Of a stretch of DNA of 64,000 nucleotides, positions 11,107-27,614 are shown piece by piece (within the stretch, counting starts at the first letter, position 1; each line of letters begins with the position of its first letter). This DNA is from Alphaproteobacteria bacterium (GTDB lineage Bacteria; Pseudomonadota; Alphaproteobacteria; Rhizobiales; GCA-2746425). The stretch lies in assembly GCA_024743215.1 (NCBI GenBank), contig JANSWZ010000010.1, forward strand, positions 62,001-126,000, read 5' to 3'. The notes below the pieces were generated by a model. The model did not search any database, was not told where the DNA came from, and worked only from the letters and a program-made list of their open reading frames with translations. Made by a program: the position numbers and the translations under genes.

Positions 11107-11685
11107 GATGTTTGATCCCGGATTTTGACACTGCAATATTTCTTTTGAACGGCTCGGCCAAACGACCGCAATAAAGCTGTGCGGCTTTGTCCGTGCTGTC
11201 ATGGTAGATATCTCTGATCCGGCCAGTGTCTCATTAATGTCGACAAAAGGCAGCATTCTTCCCTTTTACAAGCGACCTATCACGGCCTTTTTCCTAAGTC
11301 TTGCAGTGTCTTATGTTCTCATTGTTACTGTTCGGAAGCTGAAGGATTGGAAGACCAAGACCTAAGCGCGGGTAGGGTCATTCTATAAGCGCGTGGCTTG
11401 CTCACGCTTGTCTGCCTGGTCAATCCTACATGTGCATCATGAAATGTTGATCGGTTTCGCAAAATGCCAGTGTGTTGTTTTGATGGTAATTACAATAATC
11501 GGCATGTCGCCTCAGATAAATACAATCTTTGATTGAGTAGTTTTAAATCACAATAGTCTTTGATGACAAATTTTGGTCGCAATTGTTGGCCGAATACTGG
11601 AGCCTGTGGCCCGCCAGTTCATATCACTTGAATTCCCAGCGGATTTTCTATTTGAAAATTGCCGCAGAATTCGTAGGTTGAACAC
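11107..11685. other. 579-base gap upstream of CHAT gene
   Basis: No gene recognised. The last 200 bases are AT-rich and should hold the CHAT promoter; candidate AT-rich boxes around 11525-11560 are too loose to call. It contains GATTGAGTAG (11531-11540) and AATTGTTG (11581-11588), both echoed upstream of the caspase gene. Confidence 0.4.
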
Positions 11686-14349
11686 ATGATTAAACAATTG
11701 ATATCAAAACTGAATAACGCTCAGGCCTCTCAAATGAGTGGCTGCGCAAACCGCCTGTGGCGTCAGACAATTTGTCTGGTCGCAGCCCTGACAACCGCAT
11801 TTTGCGTGTCGTATCTTTCCACAATTTCCATTGCCGCAGCGCAGGATGTGCCGGAAATCACACCCGAAATGATTGAGGCGGCGGATGCAGGTGATGCCTA
11901 CTCTGCATATATCATCAGCTATGATCTGATTGTGAAAGGTGGTGAAGAGAACATCCGAACCGCGCTCCGGTATCTTGATATTGCCTATGAGGGATATTCA
12001 AAGGCTGAGAACGACGACGAGCGTTTTGCCGGCTCCCTCTTGAAGATGATTGGTGATGGTTACGGCCAATTGAACAATTATGCCGTAGCGTTGGAAAGAT
12101 ATCGCGCAGCTGACAAGGTATTTGAACGTTTTATGCATCTGGACGGTGTGGCGCTGGAGCGTGCGTTGAACTTGCAGGCGCAGGGTCTCACCATGATTGA
12201 TCTGTCGCGCTACAAGGAGAGCCTTACCTATTTCGAAGCGGCGCGCGCCCTTATGATCGCTGGCGATGGCGAAGAGAGCATTTACCTTGGTGACACCTAT
12301 CTGAATGAAGGCATCGCATTTGAGGGCATGAAACGCTACGTCGAGTCCATCCAGACCTACAACAAGGCGATGCTGCATTACAGCAAGGCCTATGGACCGG
12401 AAAGCGCGCCCGTCGCTTATGCCATCAACAATATCGGTTGGGTCTTCAGACGCCTTGATAATTTCGAAGAGGCTGAAAACTGGACGCTCAAAGCCTTGCC
12501 GATGATAGACAGGCATGAAGGCGCATTCTCCGACAATGGCGGAAAAGTCAGAATAAATCTTGGCATCATCTACCATCAAATGGACCGCACCGACGAAGCC
12601 ATTCGCTGGACCATGCGCGCCATGCCTTATATTTCGGCAAACAAATCAACAACCTATGATGATCAACGTTGGGCCTTTGATACGCTTTCCCGCGCCATGC
12701 GCGCCAAGGGCGACATTGACAAGGCGATCACATTCGGAAAGCTGGCAGTGAATGCGCAACAAGCCATTCGGAACCAGAATACAGATTTGGGTGAAGCGGG
12801 CACAAAGGAATTACGCAGCGAATGGTCGCGGCTTTATGAGCACCTTGCCTCACTGCTGATAGAACAGGGGCGCATTGCCGAAGCACAAGCGGTGCTCAAT
12901 ATGGAAAAGGAGCAGGAGGTTTTCAATTTCCTGCGCCGTGACGCAAGCGCATCTGTCGCAAACACCACCGCCATATTGACCGATGCAGAATTGTCTGAAG
13001 AAGAGCGATTGAAGCAACTGTCCGAATTTCCAATTGAAGCCGCTCAGACTCTCTTTGCACTGACACTCAAGCTGGAAGCCGACACGGCGGATGATGCTGA
13101 AATCGAGCAGATTTTCGTGTTGCAGGAGGCGCTGGAAGCCTCCAACGCAACGTTTGAAGCGCAGGTTGAAGCATTTCTGGAAAGCGTCGAGCCCACCCAG
13201 ACCGAAGGTTTGACGGCCCAGTTTGACAAGATCGAAAGCTACCAGGCCTTGCTGGAAGACAAGGGGCAAAAGGCGGCCATCCTTCAAATTGCGGCAATTG
13301 ATGACAAGGCACATCTGTTTCTGACCTTGCCGGATTTGAATTTGCATGAGGAGGTGGATGTTAAAAAGGCAGATTTGGCCAAGCTGGTCTTCGACAGTTT
13401 GCAACTCATTGAACAACGGTCGCCCGATGCGTCAGCCAAGCTGCAGGAGTTGAACGACATTTTGTTCGCGCCGGTGCGTGAAGCGCTGGACAAGAGCGAA
13501 ACCGAGGTGGTGATGCTGAACCTGAATGGGTTTTTGCGCTATGTGCCATTTGCAGCCCTGTTTGATGGTGAGGAATATCTCGTCCAGAATTTTGCTTTTT
13601 CGCTGTATACCACGACCATTCCAACGCAATTCAATGAAGGCGCGCGCGAGCGCACCAAGACCGCTGGTTTTGGGGTTACCGCTGCCCATCCGGGATTTTC
13701 CCCATTGCCCGGTGTGCGACAGGAATTGGAAATCATTTTTTCCGGTGATGATGCGCAGGGTGTGCTGGAAGGCCCAACCGCGCTTGACGCAAGTTTCGAT
13801 GAAAAGAGCCTGAAGCTCGCTTTGTTGAAAAAGCCCTCCATTCTTCACATCGCAAGTCACTTCAATCTGAAACCTGGCCAGGAAGATGATTCATTCCTGC
13901 TATTGGGTGATGGCGCACATCTGAAGCTGTCAGACATCCGCAAGCAAAGGGCCCTCAGTTTCAAGGGGATTGATCTTGTCACCCTGTCTGCCTGTCAAAC
14001 GGCTCTGGGTGGTGGCGATGGCTCGGAAATCGAAGGGTTCGGTGCGGCAGCGCAAGCCAATGGTGCGGGCGCAGTGATGGCATCCTTATGGCCGGTGGCC
14101 GACGATGCGACGCCGATCCTTATGCGTGATTTCTACCATGCAATGATTGATCAGGGCCTCACCAAGGCCGAGGCACTGCGCATTGCACAGGTTTCCATGT
14201 TGACGGGAAATCAGGCACCACAACTTTTGGCAAATCTTGAGCGCGGCGTCTCTGGACGTCAGAAAAAGAAAGCTCCAGAGGCGTCGCAGGCAACATTTGC
14301 GCACCCCTATTTCTGGTCTCCATTCGTGCTGATGGGCAATTGGCTGTAG
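11686..14349 (+). CDS. Exported TPR-CHAT protease
   Basis: An 887-aa protein with an export signal, a long TPR region and a C-terminal CHAT (caspase HetF-associated with TPRs) cysteine protease domain. A basic, long n-region is followed by a hydrophobic stretch, with probable cleavage near AAAQD (about residue 53). TPR-like helical repeats fill roughly residues 60-420, with a coiled, acidic linker to about 580. The CHAT domain carries the catalytic His725 in LHIASHF and Cys770 in LSACQTALGGGDG, and ends with the family signature SPFVLMGNW. Most studied CHAT proteases are cytoplasmic, so the signal sequence is notable. It heads a cluster with a caspase and a serine protease. The substrate is unknown. 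Confidence 0.93.
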   Translation: MIKQLISKLNNAQASQMSGCANRLWRQTICLVAALTTAFCVSYLSTISIAAAQDVPEITPEMIEAADAGDAYSAYIISYDLIVKGGEENIRTALRYLDIAYEGYSKAENDDERFAGSLLKMIGDGYGQLNNYAVALERYRAADKVFERFMHLDGVALERALNLQAQGLTMIDLSRYKESLTYFEAARALMIAGDGEESIYLGDTYLNEGIAFEGMKRYVESIQTYNKAMLHYSKAYGPESAPVAYAINNIGWVFRRLDNFEEAENWTLKALPMIDRHEGAFSDNGGKVRINLGIIYHQMDRTDEAIRWTMRAMPYISANKSTTYDDQRWAFDTLSRAMRAKGDIDKAITFGKLAVNAQQAIRNQNTDLGEAGTKELRSEWSRLYEHLASLLIEQGRIAEAQAVLNMEKEQEVFNFLRRDASASVANTTAILTDAELSEEERLKQLSEFPIEAAQTLFALTLKLEADTADDAEIEQIFVLQEALEASNATFEAQVEAFLESVEPTQTEGLTAQFDKIESYQALLEDKGQKAAILQIAAIDDKAHLFLTLPDLNLHEEVDVKKADLAKLVFDSLQLIEQRSPDASAKLQELNDILFAPVREALDKSETEVVMLNLNGFLRYVPFAALFDGEEYLVQNFAFSLYTTTIPTQFNEGARERTKTAGFGVTAAHPGFSPLPGVRQELEIIFSGDDAQGVLEGPTALDASFDEKSLKLALLKKPSILHIASHFNLKPGQEDDSFLLLGDGAHLKLSDIRKQRALSFKGIDLVTLSACQTALGGGDGSEIEGFGAAAQANGAGAVMASLWPVADDATPILMRDFYHAMIDQGLTKAEALRIAQVSMLTGNQAPQLLANLERGVSGRQKKKAPEASQATFAHPYFWSPFVLMGNWL

Positions 14350-14358
14350 CTCTGAATT

Positions 14359-15327
14359 CTAAGCCGGGATGTCGAGAATTTCACCATCTTGATTTACCCA
14401 GGTTACCTTGACCTTATGGGGATGTAGCGAAGTCACCTCTTTTTTCAGCCGTTGAGCTATCGAATGGGCTTCGTGAAAATGTGCCTGCTTTTCAGGATCG
14501 CTCCAGTTTGGTTCATCGTTCAACGCGTCCATTTCGTCCGTGTCGCAGAATTGGTCATATCTGTCCTCCCACTTGGAAATGCGTGATTCCAAGGCGATTG
14601 AAATACCAAGCAGATCTGGATCAACTGTTTCCCAGAAATCATTTGCCTTTGACCGGGCCCAAAGTCCCTCTTCATGCGCGGTCGCTTGAACACGTAATTC
14701 TGCTATGCTGATAACATTGCCGGGCTGCTCTGAATTGGAAAATTCTGCTTGAAGAGGCTGATCATTAGGCGGCAGCGATTGTAGGATGTCAGTGTTAGGC
14801 GGGGGTATGCGTGTCATCCGATAAGCGTAAATCGCGAAGGCCACTGTCACTGCAAGGCCTGCTGATTCCCGTAGAGACCAGGAGTGTGGGAATGACGGCA
14901 GCGCACCAAGGTGCTGAGCGTACAGCAGACAGACCGTCACCACCGCGTAGATAAGCATGGCATTGATTGTCGCCTGGCGGCCTGATTCATTGAAATCAAT
15001 GTCTTCATCCCGGTCGAAATAACGCGGTCCAAGCACCAGAACGTGCAGCAATTGCATGGCAAGACAGATGCAAAACAGAGCAGTTGCGAGCGCCGACTGA
15101 AAGAATAGGAAGGCGCCACCTGCAAAACTGACAAGAGCCATGACGCCGAGAAACCGCTTTTTAAAACGCCCTGTAATGACAGGTTCGGAAGTCTCTTCCG
15201 GATAATTGACGCGCTCGATAACTGTGTCGATCAACTCGTCGATCGCAATTGCGCGCAAAACCGCATAGCCTCCAAACATATAAAATGCTCCGAGCATGCC
15301 AAAAGCGATCGCAGTCATATTTTCCAT
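14359..15327 (-). CDS. Polytopic membrane protein, unknown family
   Basis: About 322 aa, with an N-terminal half of roughly five hydrophobic segments and a soluble C-terminal half rich in Trp and charged residues (SKWEDRYDQF, AHFHEAHSIAQRLKKEV). It is encoded opposite to its neighbours, convergent with the CHAT gene (9-base gap) and divergent from the caspase gene. The start is uncertain: the frame is open to 15366, but ATG 15327 (or 15336) is better placed after GAG-type sites. I do not recognise the family. Its position suggests a membrane partner of the exported proteases, which is inference. Confidence 0.75.
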   Translation of the reverse strand: MENMTAIAFGMLGAFYMFGGYAVLRAIAIDELIDTVIERVNYPEETSEPVITGRFKKRFLGVMALVSFAGGAFLFFQSALATALFCICLAMQLLHVLVLGPRYFDRDEDIDFNESGRQATINAMLIYAVVTVCLLYAQHLGALPSFPHSWSLRESAGLAVTVAFAIYAYRMTRIPPPNTDILQSLPPNDQPLQAEFSNSEQPGNVISIAELRVQATAHEEGLWARSKANDFWETVDPDLLGISIALESRISKWEDRYDQFCDTDEMDALNDEPNWSDPEKQAHFHEAHSIAQRLKKEVTSLHPHKVKVTWVNQDGEILDIPA

Positions 15328-15608
15328 CAAAAACATCTCAAAATAGATTCCAGGCCAAGCAACCATGATTGGTTATGTTGCAAAAAAAAGTGCAGTAACA
15401 TAGGGTTGGAGCAAAGGTAATATCCGTTAAACTTAAATAAACATAAGATTGAATAGTGTTGTTTTATGCAACTAATTGTTGTGGCTTCAGATTGTGTTTC
15501 ACAAATACAAGTAGATTGTTTTGGTGCTGCAAATGATAAGTAATCTGAATGAGTGATAAGATTTGACTGGACACAAAGAAGACAGAATCTGGTGTATTTA
15601 AGTCTGTT
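15328..15608. promoter_or_regulatory. Divergent AT-rich promoter region
   Basis: A 281-base AT-rich interval separates the divergent membrane-protein and caspase genes and must hold both promoters. No single -35/-10 pair is convincing. GATTGAATAG (15447-15456) and AATTGTTG (15474-15481) match sequences upstream of the CHAT gene. Confidence 0.4.
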
Positions 15609-17696
15609 ATGAAAAAAGTAATGTGTTTTAAGCGTGCGTCCGGTTTGCTGTCGATAATATGTGGAGTTGCTTTGCTCTGCGGTGTCGAAGCGGTTGCAAA
15701 AACAAATCATGCATTGATTGTTGGCGTGTCAAAATACCAGAATCTGCCAAAGGACCTGTGGCTGAAAGGTCCCAGGAATGACGCCATTCTTGTGCGCGAT
15801 TTTTTAATCTCCAACAGCACCAGACCGTTTGAAGAAAACAACATCCAGATACTCGCCGATGGCGTTGAGGGCGCTGACATCCCCACCTTGGCGGCGATAC
15901 GTGGTGCCTTGAGCGGTCTGGCCACCGAGGCAGGGCCGGGTGATTTTGTCTATCTGCACTTTTCAGGTCATGGAACGCAGGCACCGGCCCGCGACCCTTC
16001 AACGGAACTGGATGGTTTGGATGAGTTGTTTTTGCCTGCCGATATTGGCACCTGGGACAACACGGTAGGTACGGTTGCCAATGCCCTGGTGGATGATGAG
16101 ATTGGCGAGTTGATTGGTGCCATTCAGGCTAAAGGAGCCCATATCTGGGCGGTTTTTGACAGTTGCCATTCAGGCACCGTAACGCGCGCTGCAAACTTGT
16201 CTGATCCGCTGGACAGAGAAGTGTCCCGCAAGCTGTCTCCGGCCGTTCTTGGCATAAGTGATGCCGATTTGGTCGCCGCCAAGCCAACCACGCGAGGCAT
16301 TGGCGTTGAAGAGACGGGTGGTTCGGTTGAAAGCCTGGCCGAAAGCCCGACCTCCGAAACGGGTAGTTTTGTTGCCTTTTACGCCGCGCAAACCAACCAG
16401 ACCACGCCGGAGATGCGGCTTCCGGCGAACAAAACTCCGCGCGAACCGCACGGGCTCTTTACCTTCTCCATTCTGGAGGCCATCGCACAAAATCCAGGCA
16501 TCTCCTATCGCCAACTCGGTCAGGAAATTCTGCGAAACTATTCAGTACTGAATCGCTCCCAACCCACCCCGCTGTTTGAAGGCGATCTCGATCTTGGTGT
16601 CTTTTCAAATACCGAAGCGGCTTTTATCCAGCAATGGCCGGTCAAACAGACTGGCGGCACATTGACGATAAAGGCAGGTCGTCTTCATGGCTTGTCTCTT
16701 GGCGAAACCCTGGGAATGGTTGAGACGCCCGCTCAGAAAGAAGTGGACGAAAACCTGCAGTTCAAGGTCGAAACAATCACTGACCTGACGGCCACTGTGA
16801 CGCCAATCAGCGAAAGCTTTGCAATTCCTGCCGATACGCAGTTTGCACGAAAAATCGCGACCAGTATCGACTACAGTTTCACCATTGCCAAACCATTGGA
16901 CGAGCAGCAGACGCCCGAGACTGAAGCACTTTTCTCCGCTCTGGATAATTTTGAGCAGGCTGGTCTGAGATTGGAGATGACTGATCCTGAAACCGAAGCC
17001 GATGTCCAGTTTGTTATCAGGGACAACAGCCTCTGGTTCGTCGGCAGGGATGGCATCTTGGTGCCCGAGGGGCCGAACAAAACCCCTTCAGTCTCCATGG
17101 AAGAAAAATCCGCTGACGAGTTCTTGGCCATAGTCGGAGATAATCTGGCACGCATGGCGCGAGCCAATAATCTCATCAAACTGGGTGGCATTTTCAGACC
17201 GTCAGCGATGGGCGTTGATCTTCAATTTACGGCTCAGAATACGGTGCGCGAAGAACCGCTTGTGCTGGATGCAGCCTCTGTTTCAAAGCTGGTGCCGGGG
17301 GACATCGTCTTTCTGAAAGCAAAAAACACGCAGCGCAATCCGGTCGATGTGAACGTGTTGTATATCGGCAGCGATTTTTCGATTTCCCACATCTATGTGG
17401 AGCGCCTGAACAGAGAAGACAGTTTTGATCTTGATCTGTTTGATATCACCGATGCTTCCTTGGGCAGAGAGCGCATTCTCGTTGTGGCAACGCCCGCAGC
17501 ACCACAAAGCGCGGTTGAAGATTTGAGTTGGCTTGAGCAGTCAAGTCTGGAGCGCACCAGAGGAAATCAGAGTGAGCTAGGCGGCATGCTGGCGGAAGCA
17601 GGTTTTGCTTCCACGACACGCGCTGTGAAGAAACGTGGCGGTGCGGGTGGTGGAATTGCCCAGATACTTGTTGATGTGGTTGGGCAATTGGAATGA
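15609..17696 (+). CDS. Exported caspase-family (peptidase C14) protease
   Basis: A 695-aa clan CD cysteine protease of the caspase/metacaspase type. The signal peptide spans residues 1-30 (VEAVA). The p20-like domain starts at once with HALIVGVSKY; the catalytic dyad is His121 in HFSGHG and Cys186 in FDSCHSG. After about residue 330 a large C-terminal region of beta-rich character is interrupted by an acidic, low-complexity stretch. That region includes VPGDIVFLKAKNT and a DVNVLYIGSDFSISHIY segment, like the DUF4384-type domains often attached to bacterial caspases. Its stop overlaps the following small membrane gene by four bases (ATGA). Cleavage specificity cannot be read, but prokaryotic C14 enzymes often prefer Arg/Lys. 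Confidence 0.92.
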   Translation: MKKVMCFKRASGLLSIICGVALLCGVEAVAKTNHALIVGVSKYQNLPKDLWLKGPRNDAILVRDFLISNSTRPFEENNIQILADGVEGADIPTLAAIRGALSGLATEAGPGDFVYLHFSGHGTQAPARDPSTELDGLDELFLPADIGTWDNTVGTVANALVDDEIGELIGAIQAKGAHIWAVFDSCHSGTVTRAANLSDPLDREVSRKLSPAVLGISDADLVAAKPTTRGIGVEETGGSVESLAESPTSETGSFVAFYAAQTNQTTPEMRLPANKTPREPHGLFTFSILEAIAQNPGISYRQLGQEILRNYSVLNRSQPTPLFEGDLDLGVFSNTEAAFIQQWPVKQTGGTLTIKAGRLHGLSLGETLGMVETPAQKEVDENLQFKVETITDLTATVTPISESFAIPADTQFARKIATSIDYSFTIAKPLDEQQTPETEALFSALDNFEQAGLRLEMTDPETEADVQFVIRDNSLWFVGRDGILVPEGPNKTPSVSMEEKSADEFLAIVGDNLARMARANNLIKLGGIFRPSAMGVDLQFTAQNTVREEPLVLDAASVSKLVPGDIVFLKAKNTQRNPVDVNVLYIGSDFSISHIYVERLNREDSFDLDLFDITDASLGRERILVVATPAAPQSAVEDLSWLEQSSLERTRGNQSELGGMLAEAGFASTTRAVKKRGGAGGGIAQILVDVVGQLE

Positions 17697-17956
17697 ATTT
17701 ACTTTCTTTCGCTTTCATCATCGTGTTTGCGCTGGCAATCATCCTTGCCATTTTTGGTGCCTTCAAATTCTTCCGGCACCTGCCAACCTACTTGCGGCTG
17801 CGCACAGGAAGTTCTGTCGCAGTGCACAGGTTTCAATTTCAAGATTATGTTGACTGGTTGGCCGCAGACAACAAAACAAACGGCAACGGACTACTTCTAT
17901 TCGCATCAGGGATGGCTCTTTCACTAATGGCTTTTCCATTTCTGCTGGTCTTTTAA
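17693..17956 (+). CDS. Small two-helix membrane protein coupled to caspase
   Basis: An 87-aa protein with hydrophobic helices at about residues 4-24 and 66-86, joined by a basic/aromatic loop (HLPTYLRLRTGSS). Its ATG overlaps the caspase stop codon (ATGA), so translation is probably coupled and the products may act together, for example as a membrane anchor or inhibitor. No family is recognised. Confidence 0.7.
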   Translation: MNLLSFAFIIVFALAIILAIFGAFKFFRHLPTYLRLRTGSSVAVHRFQFQDYVDWLAADNKTNGNGLLLFASGMALSLMAFPFLLVF

Positions 17957-17984
17957 TTTAGTAAATCCCCATGGAGGAAAATGT

Positions 17985-19034
17985 ATGAAAATTGGTTTGA
18001 GTCTCGCGGTAGCGTCATTGTTGATGACAACTGCAACCTTGCAGGCAGCTGAAAAGCTTGCACCCCTGGAAAAAGGTGTAAATTTTGTCGCGCCTTATAC
18101 ACTGGCCGGTTCTGCTGAAAAAAGTGCATTCGTGGAACGTGCAGGTGAAGATGAGGAAGCCTCTCGTGTTCTCAACGGACAACGGGCTGATGATGGCGAA
18201 TATCCCTATCAGACCGCTTTGCTGCGCGTTGATATTGAAAAGAGCACAGTTGCCCAGTTCTGTGGTGGGTCAATGATCCAGAACCAATGGGTTCTGACGG
18301 CTGCGCACTGTGTCGTTGATGCACGCGATGACGGGCTTTATCTCGTGGATTCAAGCAATATTGGCATACTCGTAGGGTCGAACAACATTACCAAAGGCGG
18401 CGACCTGATTGGTATTGAACAGATCAAGGTCCACCCGTCCTATAATCCAAACAGCTTTGAAAACGACATCGCGCTGCTAAAGCTTGTGCGCACCCCAAAG
18501 TCGGCCTTCAAGACCATCACCATTCCTACTGAAGAATATGCAGATATTCTGGAACAACCAGGTGTGGAATCCATTGTGACAGGCTGGGGCCGGACGGAAA
18601 CCGGGAAGGCATCGATCGAGCTTCTTGAAGGCAAAATCGAAATTCTGGACCGTGCGATCTGTAATGCAGTTATGATGGAACCCCGCAGAAAGGCTGCAGC
18701 CAGTTCATTTTCCAAAGCCGTTGAAATTCTGGGCGTTAAGGGTGAAATTGCAAACAAGCTGTGGCTGGACATGAACGCAGCTGTTCAAGAACCATTCTCC
18801 GAGAACATGATCTGTTCAGGAACGCCGCTTGGCCCGCGTGGCGCATGCGATGGTGATAGTGGCGGCCCTCTGGTCGTCCGTCAGGCGGATGGAACCTTCA
18901 TTCAGGCTGGTATCGTGAGCTGGGGCATGTTCAGTTCAGACGAGCCTGGCTGTAACCGTAACGCCAAATTTTCGGCCTATACCCGCGCTGGAAACTATGC
19001 CGATTGGGTGCTGGGCGAATTGGGTTTCAAATAA
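17985..19034 (+). CDS. Exported chymotrypsin-fold (S1) protease zymogen
   Basis: A 349-aa secreted serine protease. The signal peptide ends near LQAAE (residue 22). A propeptide runs to Arg61, followed by VLNG, the usual position of zymogen cleavage and new N-terminus. The triad is His108 (TAAHC), Asp161 (NDIALL) and Ser292 (GDSGGPL). In chymotrypsin numbering the S1-pocket residue 189 reads as Gly (GACDGDSGG), not Asp, so trypsin-like Arg/Lys specificity is not expected. Cysteines near the His and Ser allow typical disulfides. It follows the caspase and small membrane gene in the same direction (28-base gap, AGGA upstream). A family name of trypsin-like is common, but the pocket argues otherwise. 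Confidence 0.93.
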   Translation: MKIGLSLAVASLLMTTATLQAAEKLAPLEKGVNFVAPYTLAGSAEKSAFVERAGEDEEASRVLNGQRADDGEYPYQTALLRVDIEKSTVAQFCGGSMIQNQWVLTAAHCVVDARDDGLYLVDSSNIGILVGSNNITKGGDLIGIEQIKVHPSYNPNSFENDIALLKLVRTPKSAFKTITIPTEEYADILEQPGVESIVTGWGRTETGKASIELLEGKIEILDRAICNAVMMEPRRKAAASSFSKAVEILGVKGEIANKLWLDMNAAVQEPFSENMICSGTPLGPRGACDGDSGGPLVVRQADGTFIQAGIVSWGMFSSDEPGCNRNAKFSAYTRAGNYADWVLGELGFK

Positions 19035-19050
19035 TCCAGGCTCTTGAGTC

Positions 19051-19254
19051 GTGCATATCATCGGGAAAGTCTTTTTCGGCGTTATCGCGACAATCCTGCT
19101 TTTTCTGATCATGACGGCTGGAAACCCTCCAGCCGTCTCTTTTTTTTGGAAAACGGAAACTCTGACAATTATCGGACATGAGACCGAAGACTGGAATTCT
19201 GGTTGGGGTGTCATCAGAAGAACCCTGCCCGCTTATGGACCGCAGGTCGCCTGA
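19051..19254 (+). pseudogene. 5' part of a frameshifted two-module membrane gene
   Basis: A 67-codon frame with a signal-anchor helix, then GNPPAVSFFWKTETLTIIG and GWGVIRRTLPAYGPQVA, then stop. The motif order (helix, PP, FW, T-I) repeats in the second half of the following frame (FGDPPP, VLWPRETVEIV). This frame therefore looks like the N-terminus of the protein continued at 19178 in another frame. A strong intrinsic terminator (19113-19147) lies within it. Its general build recalls DUF3592-type proteins. Either an indel broke the gene or frameshifting joins the parts. Confidence 0.5.
19113..19147 (+). terminator. Strong intrinsic terminator inside a reading frame
   Basis: GACGGCTGGA (19113-19122) and TCCAGCCGTC (19128-19137) form a perfect 10-bp stem with an AACCC loop, followed by TCT and T7. 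It lies about 80 bases past the S1 protease stop and would end that transcript, yet it sits inside the next reading frame. Confidence 0.88.
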
Positions 19255-19981
19255 CGCGAAGCATCCAACAATTATGCTCCATATCGATGAGCGCATAACA
19301 GACCGGGACTCTGTCGTGGAAAACTGGCCCATTGGCCTGCAGGTAAAATCACGGCTGCACCCGTCTGAGCGGGTAGCCTATCCAACCAGCAAATGGCCAT
19401 TCATGACCGTGCCGGCATTCGGCTTTGCAGCTATTCTGCTCTTTCTGGCTGGATTTCAAATACACCGCTTGTTTGAAAAGCAACGTCCGGAAAACACCAG
19501 GCAAGGGCGATCCAAAGCCTATGGGTCAGCAGGCTGGATCCTTGCACTGTTCATGCTGCTGTTCACAGCAGTTCCACTGTTTCTATTGATTTTCGCAGCA
19601 AACTTTGGCGACCCTCCGCCACGATCTGTCCTCTGGCCCCGTGAAACAGTGGAAATTGTCTCATCCAAGGCGCGCATCTTCAATGTTGGCAATGGCACCA
19701 AGGCTGCCTATCTGGACGTATTCGTCAAAGCACCGGATGATTTGAACGCTGCAACCGAACAGATGAAAGGCACATCCTATTCGTCTGTCTCGATCAGCCG
19801 TGCGCGTGAGATATTGGCGTCTGACTATCAGCCAGGTGAACTGAGATCTGCAATGCGCTCGCCCACGGGGGACTTGTATGTGGTGAGGTTCAGATACACA
19901 GACGGCTTTGCAATGCTCGCCACCTTGCTGTCATTGCTCTGCTTTGTCGTTGTGCGCATATTGTGGCGGTTATTTTCCTGA
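19178..19981 (+). CDS. Membrane protein, 3' part of the two-module gene (DUF3592-like)
   Basis: Up to 267 codons; the credible homologous part starts near DAKHPTIMLHIDER (about 19250). It contains ENWPIGLQVKSRLHP, like the 'YPVGxxVxVYYxP' part of DUF3592 proteins, then a helix, a basic loop, and a second helix. After that the pattern repeats (PPPRSVLWPRETVEIV, DYQPGELRSAMRSP) with a last helix. This tandem duplication shows that the missing N-terminal part is encoded at 19051 in another frame. If the frame were restored, the protein would be about 310 aa. Function unknown; probably an inner-membrane protein of the protease locus. Confidence 0.6.
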   Translation: MRPKTGILVGVSSEEPCPLMDRRSPDAKHPTIMLHIDERITDRDSVVENWPIGLQVKSRLHPSERVAYPTSKWPFMTVPAFGFAAILLFLAGFQIHRLFEKQRPENTRQGRSKAYGSAGWILALFMLLFTAVPLFLLIFAANFGDPPPRSVLWPRETVEIVSSKARIFNVGNGTKAAYLDVFVKAPDDLNAATEQMKGTSYSSVSISRAREILASDYQPGELRSAMRSPTGDLYVVRFRYTDGFAMLATLLSLLCFVVVRILWRLFS

Positions 19982-20077
19982 TCCGTTTTCGGACTTTTCG
20001 CTGACCTTTCCGAACTTGAGATTATCGTGCGTTTACCTTGGAATGGGTTTGCCGGAACAAAGGTTTTGCGACGCATC

Positions 20078-20282
20078 TAGCGCGAAAAGGGTTGGGCAAA
20101 TGTTCTCCAAACGCAGGACGCCTTAGTATCAGCGCTGTCGCTGCCCCAGATATCAGGCAGGCACCAACCACCTGCCCAATCCGCCAATTGCCGAAGATCA
20201 CTGCCACAATGGCGAGGTAACCCACGCCTCGCGTCATGCCTTCCGTAAAAGTGCGTAATTCCGCAACCGCCAGAAGGGCGTC
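20078..20282 (-). pseudogene. Remnant of a sugar/nucleoside ABC permease
   Basis: A minus-strand stretch reading LLAVAELRTFTEGMTRGVGYLA then IVAVIFGNWRIGQVVGACL. It matches the conserved region of RbsC/BmpB-family ABC permeases (TEGMTxGxGxIAxAxVIFGxW). Only about 65 residues remain, and no other transporter genes flank it. It is read here as debris of a deleted operon, not a working gene. Confidence 0.55.
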
Positions 20283-20456
20283 GGGTAAACATTTACATCC
20301 CTTTCCTGTTGCCCCAAGAGGCGGGTTATCCCCGCTTCGGATGTGCTGATGCAATCGCAGTGTCAGCTATCCAGACCTATGATTTTCTAGAGAATTTAGT
20401 GCGAGCGTTCTGGGAAAATAAGTAAATGATTACTTGATGGACGCCGCAATGCTGTA
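20283..20456. other. Upstream flank of the sigma-54-type promoter
   Basis: A stretch without coding signal between the permease remnant and the possible activator site. No further regulatory motif was recognised. Confidence 0.3.
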
Positions 20457-20477
20457 GTTGCACACAAATCGGGCAAC
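20457..20477 (+). promoter_or_regulatory. Possible enhancer-binding protein site
   Basis: An inverted repeat GTTGC-N11-GCAAC centred about 65 bases upstream of the sigma-54-type promoter at 20525. The spacing and dyad fit an activator site for a bacterial enhancer-binding protein. It is not a clean NtrC consensus (TGCACC-N5-GGTGCA), so the activator is unknown. Confidence 0.4.
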
Positions 20478-20524
20478 TTGATTGAATCTCTGGGTGAATA
20501 TTGGCTGAATTGCAGGCTTTTGGT

Positions 20525-20541
20525 CTGGCACGCGGTTTGCA
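20525..20541 (+). promoter_or_regulatory. Sigma-54 type -24/-12 promoter
   Basis: CTGGCACGCGGTTTGCA matches the consensus TGGCACG-N4-TTGCA, with the invariant GG (20527-20528) and GC (20539-20540) separated by the required ten bases. Transcription would start near 20552, giving a leader of about 120 bases before the amidase. This implies activator-dependent, possibly nitrogen-related, control of the amidase operon. Confidence 0.8.
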
Positions 20542-20650
20542 TTGTATGTGCAAAGGAAAACATCGCGGAGAGTGCCATGAGCAGCAAGGACGAGGCTATC
20601 GAAAAGGGAAACCTCATAAGCCTGACAAATTTGTGCCAGGCACAGGATTG

Positions 20651-20667
20651 CCTCCTCCAACAGGAGG
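20651..20667 (+). promoter_or_regulatory. Hairpin burying the amidase ribosome-binding site
   Basis: CCTCCT (20651-20656) pairs perfectly with AGGAGG (20662-20667) across a CCAAC loop. AGGAGG is the Shine-Dalgarno of the amidase ATG at 20675. The hairpin would mask the site and limit translation unless opened. Confidence 0.6.
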
Positions 20668-20674
20668 GTCATAA

Positions 20675-22204
20675 ATGACCGATGCAGATCTGTTTGACCT
20701 TGGTACGGTCAGTGTAAGGGAAATTCGCGAGGGGCTGAAAAGCCGTCGCTTCACTGCCGAGGCTTTGACACTGGCTGCAATGGCCCAGATCAAAGCCATG
20801 AACCCAAAATACAACGCCATCATTTTTGAAAATGAAGCCGCTCTCGCCGCCGCCAGGGACATTGATCGGCGTATTGCCGCTGGCGAGCCTGTTGGCCCGT
20901 TGGCAGGGGTGCCAATCGTGGTCAAAGACCCAATGGATATGACTGGTTTTCCGACCACTGCGGGATGGAAAAAACTTTACTCGAAGTCCGGTGGCGTTGA
21001 TCTGATGCCGGAACGTGACAGCCCCGTTGTTGCGCGCATGCGAGAAGCTGATGCGGTCATTCTCGGCAAGACCAATGTTCCAATATTGAGCTGGACTGGC
21101 ACACATGCGAATGACAGCTGGGCCGGACCCACGATCAACCCGGCTCATGAGGAGCGCGTACCGGGGGGATCAAGCGCTGGCACGGCCGCTGCGGTTGCAA
21201 GTCATATGGCTGTACTGGGCCTGGCTGAAGAAACAGGCGGGTCTATTCAGAATCCGGCATCGGCACAGGGATTGGTTGGGATAAAACCAACCATTGGTTT
21301 GGTTCCCAATGCAGGCGTTGTTCCCCTGTCTGGAAATCGCGATGTTGTGGGTCCAATTGCCCGTACTGTAGAAGACGCAGCCATTGGTCTCGACGCCCTT
21401 GCCGGCTACTCCTCCGAAGATCCCAAAACACTTGCATCTGTCGGTAAAATTCCTGTTTCCGGATACACCGCAAATCTCTCGAAAGATGGATTGAAAGGCA
21501 AACGTCTGGGGCTCTACGGCCCTGGCTGGCGCCCGAATGCACTCTCGGCCGAAACCAAACAACTTTATGAACGTGCTGTATCTGAATTGGCGGATGCGGG
21601 TGCCGAACTCATTGATGATCCCTTTGGTGGGACTGATTTCGCAACCTATCGAGAGATCACGCCGGGAACGCCGTTCTTTGATGGCAGAGGGCTTGAATCC
21701 ATAGCTTACGATTTGGGTCTCTATTTGCGTCGCCTTGGGCCCAATGCCGCGCTCAAGACCTGGCAAGATTTTGTTGAGGCAACCGATCTGGAGGAGGTGA
21801 CAGGTCCGGGAACAATTCTCGGATTTCTGTATGAGCTCCCCGATTTTGTGGAAGCAATCAAATCACCAAATACGCCACCGGCCATGCCTGCTTTCATTGA
21901 ATTGAAGCAGCGCTATCTTGAGTTAATTGATGAAGTTTTTGCACGCCATGAACTGGAGGGTCTGGTTTATCCGCAGATGCTTGAAGAAATCCCCGAACTG
22001 CATTCAGGAGATCCGATTCGAGAGACAACGGTGGGCGAGTTGAATATCGCTGGTCTGCCAGCGATCACAGTGCCTGCGGGTTATTACCAAAGCGGCGCGC
22101 CATTTGAATTGATATTCCTGGGGCAAAAATGGAGTGAACCGGCGCTCATTCAGCAGGCTTATGCGTATGAACAATCTACGTTGCATCGACGTGCTGCGGT
22201 CTGA
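20675..22204 (+). CDS. Amidase signature family hydrolase
   Basis: A 509-aa cytoplasmic amidase hydrolysing a carboxamide to acid and ammonia or amine. The Ser-cisSer-Lys triad is visible: Lys84 (VVKD), cis-Ser at GGSSAG (166-167), and nucleophile Ser190 in ETGGSIQNPAS. The Gly-rich region GTAAAVASH follows the cis-Ser. It heads a tight operon: the amidohydrolase starts 23 bases later. It is controlled by the sigma-54-type promoter and an RBS hairpin upstream. Substrate unknown; the neighbours point to an N-acyl or carbamoyl nitrogen compound that also carries a phosphorylatable group. Confidence 0.93.
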   Translation: MTDADLFDLGTVSVREIREGLKSRRFTAEALTLAAMAQIKAMNPKYNAIIFENEAALAAARDIDRRIAAGEPVGPLAGVPIVVKDPMDMTGFPTTAGWKKLYSKSGGVDLMPERDSPVVARMREADAVILGKTNVPILSWTGTHANDSWAGPTINPAHEERVPGGSSAGTAAAVASHMAVLGLAEETGGSIQNPASAQGLVGIKPTIGLVPNAGVVPLSGNRDVVGPIARTVEDAAIGLDALAGYSSEDPKTLASVGKIPVSGYTANLSKDGLKGKRLGLYGPGWRPNALSAETKQLYERAVSELADAGAELIDDPFGGTDFATYREITPGTPFFDGRGLESIAYDLGLYLRRLGPNAALKTWQDFVEATDLEEVTGPGTILGFLYELPDFVEAIKSPNTPPAMPAFIELKQRYLELIDEVFARHELEGLVYPQMLEEIPELHSGDPIRETTVGELNIAGLPAITVPAGYYQSGAPFELIFLGQKWSEPALIQQAYAYEQSTLHRRAAV

Positions 22205-22227
22205 AACATCAGAATTGGAACTATCTC

Positions 22228-23520
22228 ATGTCTGATGAGCGTGTAGTCAAAAGTGCGCGGCATACAGAATTGCTTGAGTTGCTCGATGCGTTTGGAACGT
22301 TCGGTGAGACGGAGAAGGGCGGCATCGCGCGCCTTGCCGCAAGCCCGGCAGATGGTCATGTGCGTGACTTTCTCTGCGATTGGTTCAGGGAACGAGATTT
22401 CCGTGTGCTGGTAGACGAAGTCGGGAATATTTTTGGCGTGCTGGACTTGATGAAAGGCCCTGCTGAAAAGAACTTCTTTTGCGGATCGCATCTTGATAGC
22501 CAGCCTGAGGCCGGAAAATTTGATGGCGCTTTGGGTGTTGCCTGTGCCTGTATCGCTGCGCTTTGCCTGCAAGAGAGCGTGAAAACCGAAGGGCTTGAAC
22601 CTTCATTCAGATATTTCGTTGTGTGTTGTTGGACAGGTGAAGAAGGCGCACGTTTTCAGCCAAGTTTGGTGGGAAGCAGCGTGTATAGCGGAGCAAAAAC
22701 AGCCGCTGAAACGCTCGCTATCAAAGATAGTGATGAGACAAGCCTGGCGGTCGCGCTCGACGCCATTGGATATCGTGGCAAAGACACCATCCCGAAGGCT
22801 GACCAGTATCTGGAACTCCATATCGAACAGGGAACTGAACTGGAAAGAAACAAAACGCCGATTGCGCTTGTTACCAATTGTTGGGGTGCAAAGAAAATCC
22901 GCCTCAAGTTCAAGGGCGTTCCCGACCATACCGGACCGACACCAATGCAAGACCGGCGCAATGCTCTGCTCGCTGCTTCTCATGGGATCGTTGAGGTTGA
23001 GGTAATTGCGAACAAGACAAAGGCGACTTTGTACAGCTCGGTTGGCCGCATTGAAGTGCAGCCCAATTCACCAAATACGATTGCTGAGCATGTTCAAATG
23101 TGGATCGAATTCAGATCACCCGATGAAGCCGCGCTGGAGGCCGCGGAAAAGGATCTTCTCAAAGCACTTGACGGGATTGAACGCGAAACTGGTTGCACGG
23201 CACATATCTCCAGCACAGAAACCAGGAGTGTCGTTACATTTGACAAGACAGCCATCGCGACGATTGAGGCCGGTTTCAAAGCGGCCTCAATCCCATTTCT
23301 GCATCTCAAAACCATTGCGGGGCATGATGCGGTTCGGCTTCAGGAAGTCTGTCCGTCGACACTCCTGTTCGCTCCCTCCAAAGACGGGATTACCCATTCG
23401 CCTGAAGAGTTCACTGCGGACGAAGATGTCTGCGCCGGATTCGACGCAATGCTTGATGCCCTTTCGAACCTGATAATCGGACCTGTATCTGAGCAATATT
23501 CCGGGAGACAGTCACAATGA
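22228..23520 (+). CDS. M20-family Zn amidohydrolase (carbamoylase/ureidopropionase type)
   Basis: A 430-aa metal-dependent hydrolase of the AtzC/HyuC branch, which includes N-carbamoyl-L-amino acid hydrolase, beta-ureidopropionase and allantoate amidohydrolase. Metal-binding motifs are GSHLDSQPEAGKFDGALGV near residues 87-105 and GEEGARFQPSLVGSS near 137-151, then ELHIEQG near 196-202 and HAGHD-like AGHDA near the C-terminus. It would release ammonia and CO2 or an acid from an N-carbamoyl or N-acyl amine. It is followed with a 4-base overlap (ATGA) by a kinase-like gene, showing operon structure. Confidence 0.9.
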   Translation: MSDERVVKSARHTELLELLDAFGTFGETEKGGIARLAASPADGHVRDFLCDWFRERDFRVLVDEVGNIFGVLDLMKGPAEKNFFCGSHLDSQPEAGKFDGALGVACACIAALCLQESVKTEGLEPSFRYFVVCCWTGEEGARFQPSLVGSSVYSGAKTAAETLAIKDSDETSLAVALDAIGYRGKDTIPKADQYLELHIEQGTELERNKTPIALVTNCWGAKKIRLKFKGVPDHTGPTPMQDRRNALLAASHGIVEVEVIANKTKATLYSSVGRIEVQPNSPNTIAEHVQMWIEFRSPDEAALEAAEKDLLKALDGIERETGCTAHISSTETRSVVTFDKTAIATIEAGFKAASIPFLHLKTIAGHDAVRLQEVCPSTLLFAPSKDGITHSPEEFTADEDVCAGFDAMLDALSNLIIGPVSEQYSGRQSQ

Positions 23521-24476
23521 AATTACTTGGAACCCCAACAAATCCATTGGAAGAAATGGCTGAAGTCGCACTGCAAAACGTGCCGACCCTGGATGGTGCT
23601 ACAGTGCAGTATCAAGCTTCAATCGGCTCGGTGGTCTCCCCCATTCACCGCGGCGTTGAAAGCGCCTGTTTCGATGTGAATGCGGGGCCCGAAGAGCTGT
23701 TTCTAAAAGTTCGCTACCCGGACATGGCAGCTTTCTTTGATGAGGCAGCCGTTGGTGAAGGCGCGCAGCGGGCATCAGATTTGGGTGTGGGCCCACGCTT
23801 GATCAACGCTCAAACTGATTCCGGCAGTTATCTGTTCGAACGTCTTGGAGATGATTGGCATTGGGGTAAGGTCGATGATTTTGAAGATGCCACTGTTTTG
23901 GAAAACACCGTCAAAGCCAAGCAGGCAATCCACAACAGCACTGCATTTTCCAGCGACCAATCTGTCTTTGATGTGGTTGAATCTTACTGGCAGATCGTTG
24001 ATGCGGAAAACATCATTATTCCAAAGACACTGGATGTGGTGCTGCAGAAAGTCCGGCAGATTGGCGAAGCGATCAATGCCGCCGGCGTCGCCCCGAAACC
24101 CTGCCATGGAGATGGCGTTGCCTCCAATGTGATGATCTCGACCGTTGGCGAGGGGAGACTGGTTGACTTTGATTCAGCCGCCAATCAGGACCCCTATTTT
24201 GACCTTGGCAGCTTGGTCGTTGAGATCGCGCAGTTTCCGGATTTGGCCAGAGCTGTTCTGGAAATCTACGAAGGTGAGTGCCGCGAGACAGAGTTCAATC
24301 GTTGCATGCTTTATGGCATTGCCGACGATTTGAAGTGGGCCTTGTGGGGCTTCATCAGCTTTGCCAGATCTCAGCGTAGCCAGGTGGAATTTGTGAAATA
24401 TGCTGAATGGAGGCTGCTGCGCAGCCTTTCGAATGTCGGTGGTCATGACTTTGATCGCTGGTTGACGAAAATATGA
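23517..24476 (+). CDS. Choline-kinase/APH-like phosphotransferase 1
   Basis: A 319-aa protein of the aminoglycoside phosphotransferase/choline kinase fold. The catalytic loop is His197-Gly-Asp199 (CHGDGVASNVM, with the conserved Asn), and the metal-binding Asp follows in LVDFDSA. It would phosphorylate a small alcohol or amine with ATP. The start overlaps the amidohydrolase stop (ATGA) and the end is 13 bases from a second, related kinase. The N-terminal nucleotide lobe is unusual, with FLKVRYP as the probable ATP-lysine strand. The substrate is unknown. Confidence 0.82.
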   Translation: MKLLGTPTNPLEEMAEVALQNVPTLDGATVQYQASIGSVVSPIHRGVESACFDVNAGPEELFLKVRYPDMAAFFDEAAVGEGAQRASDLGVGPRLINAQTDSGSYLFERLGDDWHWGKVDDFEDATVLENTVKAKQAIHNSTAFSSDQSVFDVVESYWQIVDAENIIIPKTLDVVLQKVRQIGEAINAAGVAPKPCHGDGVASNVMISTVGEGRLVDFDSAANQDPYFDLGSLVVEIAQFPDLARAVLEIYEGECRETEFNRCMLYGIADDLKWALWGFISFARSQRSQVEFVKYAEWRLLRSLSNVGGHDFDRWLTKI

Positions 24477-24489
24477 GAGGGGCCAGGCA

Positions 24490-25431
24490 ATGATCAGAAA
24501 ACAGTTGGGCGAAGCTTCCAACGAAGCGGAACGAAATCTGGAAACAGCTGCTTTGGCAGTTCCCGGTTGGACAACAGATGGGCTTACCTATGAACCGGTG
24601 CCAGGTGGCATCAGCAATTCAAATTGGCGGATTTTTCTGACCGACCAGCCTAAAACATTTTTTCTGAAGGTCCCGGGTGAAGGGACAGAGCACTTTATTG
24701 ACCGCTCTGCTGCCAACAACGCCAGTGTCAGAGCTTTTGAAGTCGGTGTTGGTGCCGAAGTCATTCACTTCGATGCAGAAACCGGAATAGAGGTTTTTGA
24801 GTTTATTGAGGGTTTGAAAACGTCCACCAATGGTGATTTTCTCAATCGCACTGTTCGGACGAATGCCGCCCATGCAATCAAGGCATTTAACGACGCCGAA
24901 GGGCTGATCCTGCAAAAGACAACAATGGATATGATCGAAGAACACTTCGATCAGGTTCTGACATTTGGCGGACATTTTCCCCAGGATTTCACATGGCTGA
25001 ATGCCAAGTTCAGAGAAGCAAAGTCTGCTCTGACAGCATCTGGCTTGGATCTTGTTCCCTGCATGAACGATACTTTGGCAGGAAATTTCCTGTTGGACCC
25101 GCAGAACAAGGTTCTGCTTGTTGATTTCGAATATGCCTCGAACAACGACCGATGCGCAGAACTGGCACTTTGGTTTGTTGAGATGTGCTTTGATCGCGAA
25201 ACCGAGCTGGAAGTCATCGAAGAGTATTTTGGCACAGTTGATCCAAAGATCGTTGCGCGGATCACCATCTTTAAAGCGCTTGTAGATCTTAAATGGTCAA
25301 CTTGGGCCATGGTGCAAAACCAGCTTTCCGCGCTGGATTTCGACTATTTCAAATATGGCGCCTGGAAGCATATGAGAGCGCGTATCGTGATGAGTGACCC
25401 GCAATGGACTACATGGCTGAGAGCTTTGTAA
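24490..25431 (+). CDS. Choline-kinase/APH-like phosphotransferase 2 (loop His replaced)
   Basis: A 313-aa paralogue of the preceding kinase, with the LicA/choline-kinase pattern. An ATP-lysine strand FFLKVPGEG and the motif PGGISNSNWR lie near the N-terminus. The catalytic loop reads MNDTLAGNF with Asp194 and Asn present, but Met192 takes the place of the usual His. The metal motif LLVDFEYA follows. The Asp and Asn are sufficient in related kinases, so activity is possible. Gene spacing (13 bases) places it in the same operon; two neighbouring kinases may form a heterodimer. Confidence 0.82.
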   Translation: MIRKQLGEASNEAERNLETAALAVPGWTTDGLTYEPVPGGISNSNWRIFLTDQPKTFFLKVPGEGTEHFIDRSAANNASVRAFEVGVGAEVIHFDAETGIEVFEFIEGLKTSTNGDFLNRTVRTNAAHAIKAFNDAEGLILQKTTMDMIEEHFDQVLTFGGHFPQDFTWLNAKFREAKSALTASGLDLVPCMNDTLAGNFLLDPQNKVLLVDFEYASNNDRCAELALWFVEMCFDRETELEVIEEYFGTVDPKIVARITIFKALVDLKWSTWAMVQNQLSALDFDYFKYGAWKHMRARIVMSDPQWTTWLRAL

Positions 25432-25889
25432 GGGCGCCATTTTCCGAACTATCTGGCAGGACATTGATGGAGCTCTGCATCTGTCGACTGCACTGTTGAT
25501 GCCGCCAATGGTCGCAATGCGCATCGGCCTGAGGGCTTATGGTGGCCTTGGCAGATGAAAACGCACTGGAAGTGACGCTCAGAAGCTTTGAAGTCTTCCA
25601 GTTGGACAATAATGATCAGACCAATCATTTCCTCCGTCATAACGCTTTTCCGAAACAGTTAGGGCAGCGCTCCCACTGCGTGACACAAGCATTCGTATCA
25701 TCAGCACCCAGACCCATGAAACGCATGATGGTACTGACCCAAATGATCCGCTGACGCAGGACATGGTTGGAGATTTTTGTTTGGCTTCATATTCACGTGA
25801 GGAACATGAAGGTGGTGGCTGGTAAAACGGCACTGAATAAACTAAGTCGAAGGCAAAACACCGCTCATTTCGTGACGCAGGAGGAAACT
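25432..25889. other. 458-base gap between kinase and gabD
   Basis: No convincing gene. Short frames on both strands lack recognisable features, and no terminator or promoter could be called. The gap makes it uncertain whether gabD shares the sigma-54-type transcript. Confidence 0.4.
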
Positions 25890-27368: not shown

Positions 27369-27468
27369 GTAGAGATGATCACAGTGGTAGTGGGCCTTCA
27401 GGGCTCACTGCTGCGGCCACGTGTATCGAGGCGTGGCATCGACTGAAATGCTGGCTTGCAAGGTTACT

Positions 27469-27498: not shown

Positions 27499-27614
27499 GC
27501 GTGAAGGCAGGCATCAAACTACGGGTGCTGATGCAGATCGGCTGCGCTGTCTTCGAATCGCTGCCGATCATTATTGAGGTTTGTAGCTGTTTTCGCGGCC
27601 TCACCCATTACCGT

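Follow-up and report, generated by a model that had tools for sequence, protein, structure and literature searches.

We analysed a 64,000-nucleotide stretch of an alphaproteobacterial genome (contig JANSWZ010000010.1, positions 62,001 to 126,000; hereafter the window), in which 7.3 kb at positions 11686-19034 carry genes for a TPR-CHAT protease, a metacaspase-type C14 protease (the caspase) and a chymotrypsin-fold zymogen of the S1A family. This locus very probably encodes an exported, functional protease module. From their sequences, some alphaproteobacteria appear to export across the inner membrane a caspase relative and a linked trypsin-type zymogen, sometimes with a CHAT protein, which are seemingly able to switch one another on, and the direction of such a cascade is suggested to run from the caspase to the S1 zymogen; a pathway of the caspase type would thereby lie outside the cytoplasm. 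A preliminary description of this DNA, made from the letters alone, had reported these three protease families, each with a signal peptide; the gene positions, domains and catalytic residues that it named were all recovered in our analysis (Table 1).

The active sites of the three proteases are conserved among relatives. CHAT residues H725 and C770 are invariant in alignments of 10 and 9 rows, and caspase residues H121 and C186 are found in 80/80 rows of the caspase-1 family that hold a residue there. For S1A we built a 59-member alignment containing the window protein, 54 members from scanned loci and four from genomes G004 and G042, in which H108 and D161 are present in 59/59, S292 in all 51 rows with a residue, and the GDSGG motif is found. 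The solved chains closest in sequence to the window caspase are metacaspases 4, 1 and 9 and MCA2. Its AlphaFold2 model (predicted local distance difference test score, pLDDT, 77; predicted TM score, pTM, 0.78) matches metacaspases 9 and 4, GSU0716, yeast Yca1 and the caspase-Ig3 portion of MALT1, and all 46 fold matches at E <= 1e-3 are metacaspases, GSU0716 or MALT1. A DUF4384 domain was suspected at the caspase C-terminus, and Pfam reported none at E <= 10. In the model of the CHAT protein, the TPR half forms a helical repeat, and the CHAT half is poorly modelled.

Export was predicted from the N-termini. Under a permissive heuristic, the window proteins P0001, P0002 (read from Met17) and P0003 have signal-like starts ending in VEAVA, ISIAAA and TLQA, respectively. 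This heuristic, our first signal-peptide score, also passed 507 of 1500 random open reading frames (ORFs) and was replaced because it was too permissive. The stricter, controlled rule that took its place was applied to relatives in 80 caspase loci, the best 80 of at least 352 caspase relatives confirmed in a genome scan, and only to N-termini that could be placed (22 of 47 for the second caspase of these loci, caspase-2; 48 of 81 for a 237-residue protein; 44 of 57 for histidine kinases; 44 of 60 for degP; 4 of 10 for polA). By this rule 75/80 caspase-1 and 49/52 S1A proteins passed, together with 20/22 of caspase-2, 40/41 patatins, 41/44 HtrA-like proteases and 39/48 of the 237-residue protein. 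Among cytoplasmic controls the passes were 1/57 for response regulators, 0/4 for polA, 0/5 for rnd, 0/6 for rpe and 0/21 for an ABC ATPase. Membrane histidine kinases passed in 44/44 cases, so the rule is blind to the difference between a cleaved signal and an N-terminal membrane anchor. A lipobox was found in 36/41 patatins, a pattern that on its own also matched 19/57 response regulators. The CHAT orthologues of G001 and G002, genomes of the same genus, and of L075, a locus from an Ahrensia metagenome-assembled genome, share an N-terminal hydrophobic segment that ends A-x-A before a Gln. Signal-like N-termini are thus conserved in the caspase and S1 proteins and nearly absent from the cytoplasmic controls, in line with the export proposed for the window set. 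In the window, an exported-looking caspase lies within 10 kb of an exported-looking full-length S1A, with 288 bases between the two genes.

Our data support a tendency of the caspase and S1A genes to occur together. In a set of 14 genomes, all but one of which (G003) were picked for having the caspase and 13 of which carry it, 13 full-length S1A matches (at least 130 bits) were found in 10 genomes. They represent 12 genes, since two matches in G004 are a single gene on overlapping contigs (97%), and 12/12 lie within ~10 kb of a caspase of the window family. We also searched an unselected sample, 150 genomes from the family of G444 (Oceanicola sp. 22II-s10i, the genome of locus L079). The caspase family was detected in 11/150 genomes (E <= 1e-20), and the S1A query at E <= 1e-10 likewise matched 11, nine of them strongly (E <= 2.5e-51; one, G484, has a further weak match) and two through weak partial matches. 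All nine strong S1A genomes are among the 11 with a caspase, and each S1A lies ~110-780 bases from a caspase match. When the centre genome was excluded, 8/8 S1A genomes fell within the 10/149 caspase genomes, for which a hypergeometric test that ignores kinship gives 9e-12, a value too small because the genomes are related. In the 14 regions of 20 kb surrounding these caspases, S1A stands beside the caspase in 9/11 genomes, patatin is present in 7/11 and CHAT in 5/11, and an HtrA-like protease, a regulator, a kinase and the 237-residue protein adjoin caspase-1 in 9/11. Class-wide, the S1A family (E <= 1e-20) was found in 3/387 genomes, namely the window genome, G368 and G027, where S1A is fused to a caspase domain and adjoins another exported-looking caspase. 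Two further searches did not enter these counts: a PF00656 search of the 150 genomes could not discriminate, since it also picks up many other C14 families (72/150 genomes match), and a class-wide caspase search (60/387) returned mostly short matches to distant C14 domains.

The complete window-type set of membrane protein, caspase, CHAT and S1A recurs in a different lineage, in L075, with patatin adjoining, where CHAT, caspase and S1 are 53%, 43% and 57% identical to their window counterparts. A caspase and S1A combined with CHAT proteins of other types also recur in G004 (one S1A, then a kinase and a regulator) and in G042 (three S1A).

The S1A proteins look like zymogens that depend on another protease. 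In the 59-member alignment, the P1 residue of the predicted activation site is Arg in 30 and Lys in 29, and the new N-terminus is V/I62 in 59/59. The protein's own pocket position holds Thr in 39, Gly in 6, Ser in 4, Leu in 1 and Asp in 2 members, with seven rows lacking the residue, so that the primary pocket is non-acidic in 50/52. In the window protein, whose closest solved chains are plasma kallikrein, matriptase and MASP-1, this residue is Gly286, which aligns with the Asp of plasma kallikrein at what we take, by chymotrypsin numbering, to be the bottom of the S1 pocket. Because the activation site is Arg or Lys and the pocket lacks Asp in 50/52, most members should be incapable of self-activation and should require an Arg/Lys-cutting partner. 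Within the propeptide (window residues 23-61), a motif centred on SPFxFA..S..KA, which reads APYTLAGSAEKSA in the window, is fairly conserved and may be a docking site.

The linked caspase has features expected of such a partner. Its residues Asp58 and Asp184 are invariant where aligned, in 80/80 caspase-1 and in 46/46 and 47/47 caspase-2 rows, and matching Asp residues are seen when the protein is aligned with the chains of metacaspases 4 and 1; the Trypanosoma brucei metacaspase TbMC2 is among the matched chains. In T. brucei MC2, two Asp residues (Asp95/Asp211) hold the basic residues of substrates, according to the available text of two reports (PMC6426788; PMC8283722). Asp58 and Asp184 fit a correspondence to this basic-pocket pair and would predict an Arg/Lys preference. 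The position of MC2 Cys92 would be Pro55 in the window caspase.

We propose that the metacaspase-type protease would act as the initiator, released by some envelope signal, perhaps with the TPR-CHAT protein serving as a scaffold or as a second protease in this release. The caspase would then cut the S1 zymogen after Arg61, a step we propose because cutting there calls for Arg/Lys specificity, to which the pocket of the zymogen itself is unsuited, and the activated S1 protease would in turn cut an envelope target. In relatives that also encode a patatin lipoprotein and a two-component system, the output may be membrane or envelope damage or remodelling, as suggested by the presence of patatin in 36 and of a kinase with a regulator in 48 of 62 long loci. 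Patatin and the 237-residue family were not found anywhere in the window genome, so this lipase output would not apply there; in the window cassette, the co-encoded small membrane proteins are candidate partners. A cascade, as the preliminary description also had it, is what we infer from sequence, and its interpretation as a whole is partly supported. For the entire proposal, an extracytoplasmic module initiated by the caspase, with the S1 zymogen activated and an envelope target cut, we consider the chances evenly balanced. Activation of S1 by the caspase, taken as a single step, is plausible but falls a little short of an even chance, and a role in envelope-directed self-killing or defence would seem unlikely.

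The 80 loci place the window set in a wider gene neighbourhood. They come mostly from Rhodobacteraceae and Rhizobiales, with one from Mariprofundus, and seven of the locus genes are found together in 45/80. Among the 62 loci of at least 20 kb, a strong S1A is present in 51, a second caspase in 42, a kinase with a regulator in 48, the HtrA-like protease in 47, the 237-residue protein in 49, patatin in 36 and CHAT in 9. By Pfam, L079 contains Trypsin (4.3e-46), two C14 proteases, Patatin (5.9e-14), a histidine kinase, an OmpR-type regulator and a Trypsin_2 protein with PDZ. The exported-looking 237-residue protein (L079 9277-9990, and relatives) accompanies the caspase very regularly, in 65/80 loci, and in L079 matches no Pfam family. 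By eye, three tandem short proteins of the Mariprofundus locus (L134 7314-8703) resemble the N-terminal part of this family; they precede a sigma-factor-like gene, also identified by eye, and a caspase-CHAT pair. Another variant is seen in Mesorhizobium (L146 12622-22107), where the caspase is followed by DUF4760, WD40 and MORN-repeat proteins and two S1-type proteases. In L181 of G004 (291-1730), roughly the first 120 residues of the trypsin ORF are a type 9 secretion plug domain (PF17116); this is probably a chimeric contig end, and we therefore used the trypsin part alone.

The set is also carried on plasmids. Among plasmid records, 55 contain a caspase relative and 67 an S1A relative; Pseudosulfitobacter accounts for 46 of each, and the other 21 S1A records are from Rhizobium. 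On Pseudosulfitobacter plasmid NZ_CP085162.1, the distributed gene table shows the set spanning 16 kb, flanked by a ParB-family gene and a CcdA/CcdB pair, in the order caspase, hypothetical protein, trypsin-like peptidase, regulator, kinase, patatin, caspase, serine protease, two hypothetical proteins and CHAT. Two of the 21 Rhizobium records were read in detail. In R. etli pRetMIM1d, S1A is fused to a pseudocaspase with Gln in place of His and is followed by a serpin and a kinase-domain protein. The serpin (L205 11472-12653; Pfam 9.6e-54) has a signal-like start and, as a neighbour of the trypsin-pseudocaspase fusion, lies beside a possible target. Within 5.5 kb, Rhizobium sp. 007 has three ORFs with signal-like starts: one for a caspase (PF00656 1.1e-11), one for an S1A (1.1e-46) and another that is C14-like by eye.

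The membrane proteins interleaved with the window proteases had been described as of unknown family, and the two in question match no Pfam family above cut-off. For the 335-residue protein the same is true of PADLOC and NCBIfam at the limits used; its homologues are 75% and 51% identical in G002 and G001, and one with 27% identity over 318 residues lies beside the same trio in L075. The start codon of the 87-residue gene overlaps the stop codon of the caspase gene, and the protein is kept at the matching position in G001 and G002; its best Pfam match, below the curated cut-off, is Phage_holin_3_6 (E 0.15). The membrane protein gene downstream of S1A is one frame in relatives, of 309 residues in G002 and 325 in G001, and its product has, judged by eye, two similar halves. 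A promoter and terminator scan gave 8 and 11 sites, near the yield from shuffled sequence.

Table 1. Genes and sites of the protease cassette (window coordinates).
Feature	Position	Strand	Evidence
TPR-CHAT protease, predicted exported, 887 residues, catalytic His725/Cys770	11686..14349	+	Pfam CHAT (PF12770) 5.2e-53, TPR_12 8.6e-28
Polytopic membrane protein, 335 residues, 3-4 predicted transmembrane segments, divergent	14359..15366	-	Transmembrane scan
Metacaspase-type C14 protease, predicted exported, 695 residues, His121/Cys186, acidic pocket Asp58/Asp184, beta-rich C-terminal region	15609..17696	+	PF00656 2.7e-16
Small membrane protein, 87 residues, 2 predicted transmembrane segments	17693..17956	+	Sequence, transmembrane scan
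S1A serine protease zymogen, predicted exported, 349 residues, triad H108/D161/S292	17985..19034	+	PF00089 7.9e-44
Predicted zymogen activation site, Arg61/Val62	18165..18170	+	S1A alignment (59 members)
Membrane protein gene, interrupted frame (ORFs 19051-19254 and 19178-19981)	19051..19981	+	Comparison with G001 and G002

Chance does not account for the clustering in the window genome (5.09 Mb), because Pfam searches find a single CHAT gene, a single C14 gene and a single full-length S1A, all at this locus. Of five PF00089 matches, the window gene (145.8 bits) is the sole full-length S1A; the remaining four score 33-72 bits, lie in frames of ~500 residues and are read here as candidate HtrA-like proteins. 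By a crude estimate, three single-copy genes would fall within 7.35 kb of 5.09 Mb with a probability of ~6e-6. Nor is the block an artefact of one assembly, since the whole cassette is kept in G001 and G002 amid different surroundings, with the three proteases 82-97% identical (CHAT 95% and 82%). DNA matches to the window within regions of 20 kb cover only 11839-19969 in G001 and 11232-19985, then 25663-31006, in G002; the intervening ~5.7 kb (19986-25662: amidase, M20 peptidase, phosphotransferases), which in the window separate the cassette from the right flank that both share, are missing in G002. Genome searches of G003, of the same genus, found no caspase, CHAT or full-length S1A. The left flank of the cassette looks metabolic (sulfatases, TRAP transport, phosphoenolpyruvate (PEP)-mutase family, fasciclin and short-chain dehydrogenase/reductase (SDR) proteins), and the right flank contains an amidase, an M20 peptidase, two phosphotransferase/choline-kinase-type proteins and an aldehyde dehydrogenase. 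A surrounding defence island was rejected, as the 10 flanking genes give zero PADLOC matches, and so was a viral origin: none of 24 pattern-matching stretches in viral contigs is a relative, in a search that lay outside the phage record collection. The window cassette has no HtrA-like protease, two-component system, patatin or 237-residue protein, the search for a kinase/regulator pair being confined to the cassette and not genome-wide.

Several observations weigh against an exported cascade running from caspase to S1. The basic activation site establishes the need for an activator and does not identify the caspase in that role; another periplasmic protease could fill it. A basic P1 is usual among S1A zymogens generally, including chymotrypsinogen, so the site need not be tuned to a caspase. 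An Asp pocket is present in two Rhizobium trypsin domains, that of the fusion and that of Rhizobium sp. 007, and such members (these two, and 2/52 in the alignment) could be capable of self-activation. The partnership itself has exceptions. The caspase occurs without a full-length S1A in G015, G031 and G449 and without a strong S1A in 2/11 family genomes (G468 and G516), G471 and G562 have their weak partial S1A matches and no window-family caspase at 1e-20, and G368 has S1A with no caspase in the 12 kb read. In 11/62 long loci a strong S1A is missing from the stretch read, although in one of these, L146, the gene exists and shows in the locus as a fragment cut by its end. The gene-distance correlation of caspase-1 with S1A (r=0.90) lies inside the range of the other pairs (0.57-0.95), a comparison with no outside control family. 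The co-occurrence of all three genes implied by the preliminary description holds for the caspase and S1A, through their 9/9 adjacency and the fusions, and is less constant for CHAT, an irregular partner found in 5/11 family genomes and 9/62 long loci, for which the structure model is also poor (pLDDT 63, pTM 0.43). The absence of patatin and the 237-residue protein from the window genome counts on the same side, as does the interruption of one cassette gene, the downstream membrane gene, whose frame is broken in the window by a single-base length difference in the DNA alignment, which may be real or a sequencing error.

Some of these exceptions would be expected if three separately useful secreted proteases merely shared a locus without forming a cascade: CHAT varies, the caspase lacks an S1A in some genomes, and in one the S1A lacks a caspase. 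We consider this improbable given the 9/9 adjacency, the domain fusion, the seven genes found together in 45/80 loci and the neighbouring serpin. That the proteases simply scavenge nutrients is more improbable still. Metabolic flanks would suit such a role, and exported proteases are common in heterotrophs, but a zymogen, caspases with acidic pockets, a patatin and a two-component system would be atypical of bulk digestion.

If the proteases do act as a module, its role could be homeostatic and non-lethal, with a regulated chain degrading or processing envelope proteins, misfolded or particular ones, for stress response or quality control and feeding a dedicated two-component system. The HtrA-like Trypsin_2 and PDZ protease, OmpR-type regulator and histidine kinase that adjoin caspase-1 (9/11 genomes; 47-48/62 loci) are consistent with this, and so are the metabolic window flanks, the 10 flanking genes without a PADLOC match and the viral contigs without a relative. 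The patchy occurrence (11/150), the differing flanks within the genus and the plasmid carriage look accessory rather than housekeeping, however, and a patatin lipoprotein would seem better suited to a membrane-damaging output; we regard this role as possible but doubtful. The accessory, plasmid-borne occurrence would instead agree with extracytoplasmic defence or altruistic death, in which a phage or competitor sensed at the envelope would trigger the caspase, then S1, then a lipase or membrane effector, and the cell would be killed or sealed. Caspase- and trypsin-type proteases recur in bacterial immune systems, as far as the available text of three reports goes (PMC12799240, PMC13236601, PMC8195603), and PADLOC models match P0001 (caspase model, 6.8e-23) and, in L079, the HtrA-like protein (RT-Protease_XI, 1.5e-11), with weak matches to the L079 patatin (1.5e-4) and to P0003 (LmuA, 3.9e-4). 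Set against this are the same flanking genes and viral contigs, and a dedicated two-component system would be unusual for defence; we think this role unlikely. As readings of what the module is for, envelope stress response and envelope-level defence are about equally open.

The proposed module resembles several known systems in part. The available text of PMC6426788 describes alphaproteobacterial proteins in which trypsin, a QC pseudo-orthocaspase and DUF4384 are fused. These join the same two protease folds in the same class, and R. etli P0007, with Gln for His, has that architecture, as G027 similarly does; in the window, S1A is separate and the caspase His/Cys pair is intact, and export, CHAT, patatin and a two-component system are not described in that text. 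A survey of prokaryotic metacaspases (PMC3501461) suggests, in its available text, that signal peptides may account for many of the N-terminal helices, speculates that these proteins could act at the cell surface, and records for four Rhizobium strains an operon of protease and protease inhibition, for which it gives no mechanism. This operon is probably the caspase, trypsin-fusion and serpin locus seen here, and neither CHAT nor a Rhodobacterales-type locus is mentioned there. The accessible part of PMC10907252 predicts a secreted or periplasmic location for certain sensors of conflict systems that are linked to trypsin, caspase or CHAT domains. The available text of PMC12799240, PMC13236601 and PMC8195603, on caspase- or trypsin-bearing systems, uses the word 'periplasm' zero times. 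We found no paper on an exported caspase-trypsin-CHAT or caspase-trypsin-patatin-two-component locus in a search that left out many subscription papers and all bioRxiv preprints, and none on a 'periplasmic caspase' or 'exported caspase', with subscription papers and bioRxiv preprints again largely outside the search. To our knowledge, all bacterial systems based on caspase, CHAT or trypsin proteases whose mechanism has been worked out act in the cytoplasm.

Bacterial gasdermins are activated by proteases, and in gasdermin and CARD-NLR systems, as far as the sources consulted describe them, a lytic effector is activated by, or depends on, a trypsin- or caspase-type protease; the window set differs in being predicted exported. 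No gasdermin match was found in P0001-P0005 (Pfam, PADLOC, NCBIfam) or in the 309-residue protein of G002 (Pfam, NCBIfam), and no NLR-like ATPase or CARD-trypsin protein in the cassette or scanned flanking genes, neither search being genome-wide. The TPR-CHAT architecture with a His/Cys dyad is shared with Craspase of type III-E CRISPR systems. The window CHAT, in contrast, is predicted to be exported and is paired with a caspase and S1; the scanned flanking genes contain no match to Cas genes, a search that did not extend to CRISPR arrays or the rest of the genome. In the Canu caspase-nuclease systems, on the available text of PMC12799240, a caspase activates a co-encoded pro-enzyme and is combined with an Ig-like fold, which recalls the match of the window model to MALT1 caspase-Ig3, but the Canu partner is a metallo-beta-lactamase-fold nuclease. 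Neither the cassette nor the 10 flanking genes give a nuclease match in Pfam, the remainder of the genome lying outside that search.

Animal complement and clotting cascades also use S1A zymogens outside the cytoplasm. The likeness extends to the closest solved relatives of the window S1A and to the serpin in one branch; the initiator here would be a caspase relative, and we claim a resemblance of design only, not homology of the systems. It is conceivable, though we think it unlikely, that the module is a counterpart in design of such extracellular zymogen cascades, in which an exported metacaspase would start the chain, an S1A zymogen would be activated, a serpin would act as a check in one branch and a lipase or membrane protein would breach the cell's own envelope, placing caspase-type death signalling outside the cytoplasm. 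We rate the locus as belonging to a known kind, the protease-driven signalling and death systems of bacteria, with its predicted export and a combination of partners that we have not found reported together as the new elements. If the proposal is true, these systems would gain a conserved, partly plasmid-carried, envelope-facing branch with its own two-component system, lipase or serpin, and the question of what bacterial metacaspases do would gain a definite candidate substrate, a zymogen for which a single cleavage site is predicted, within a chain of proteolysis that could unite up to three protease families and is open to testing.

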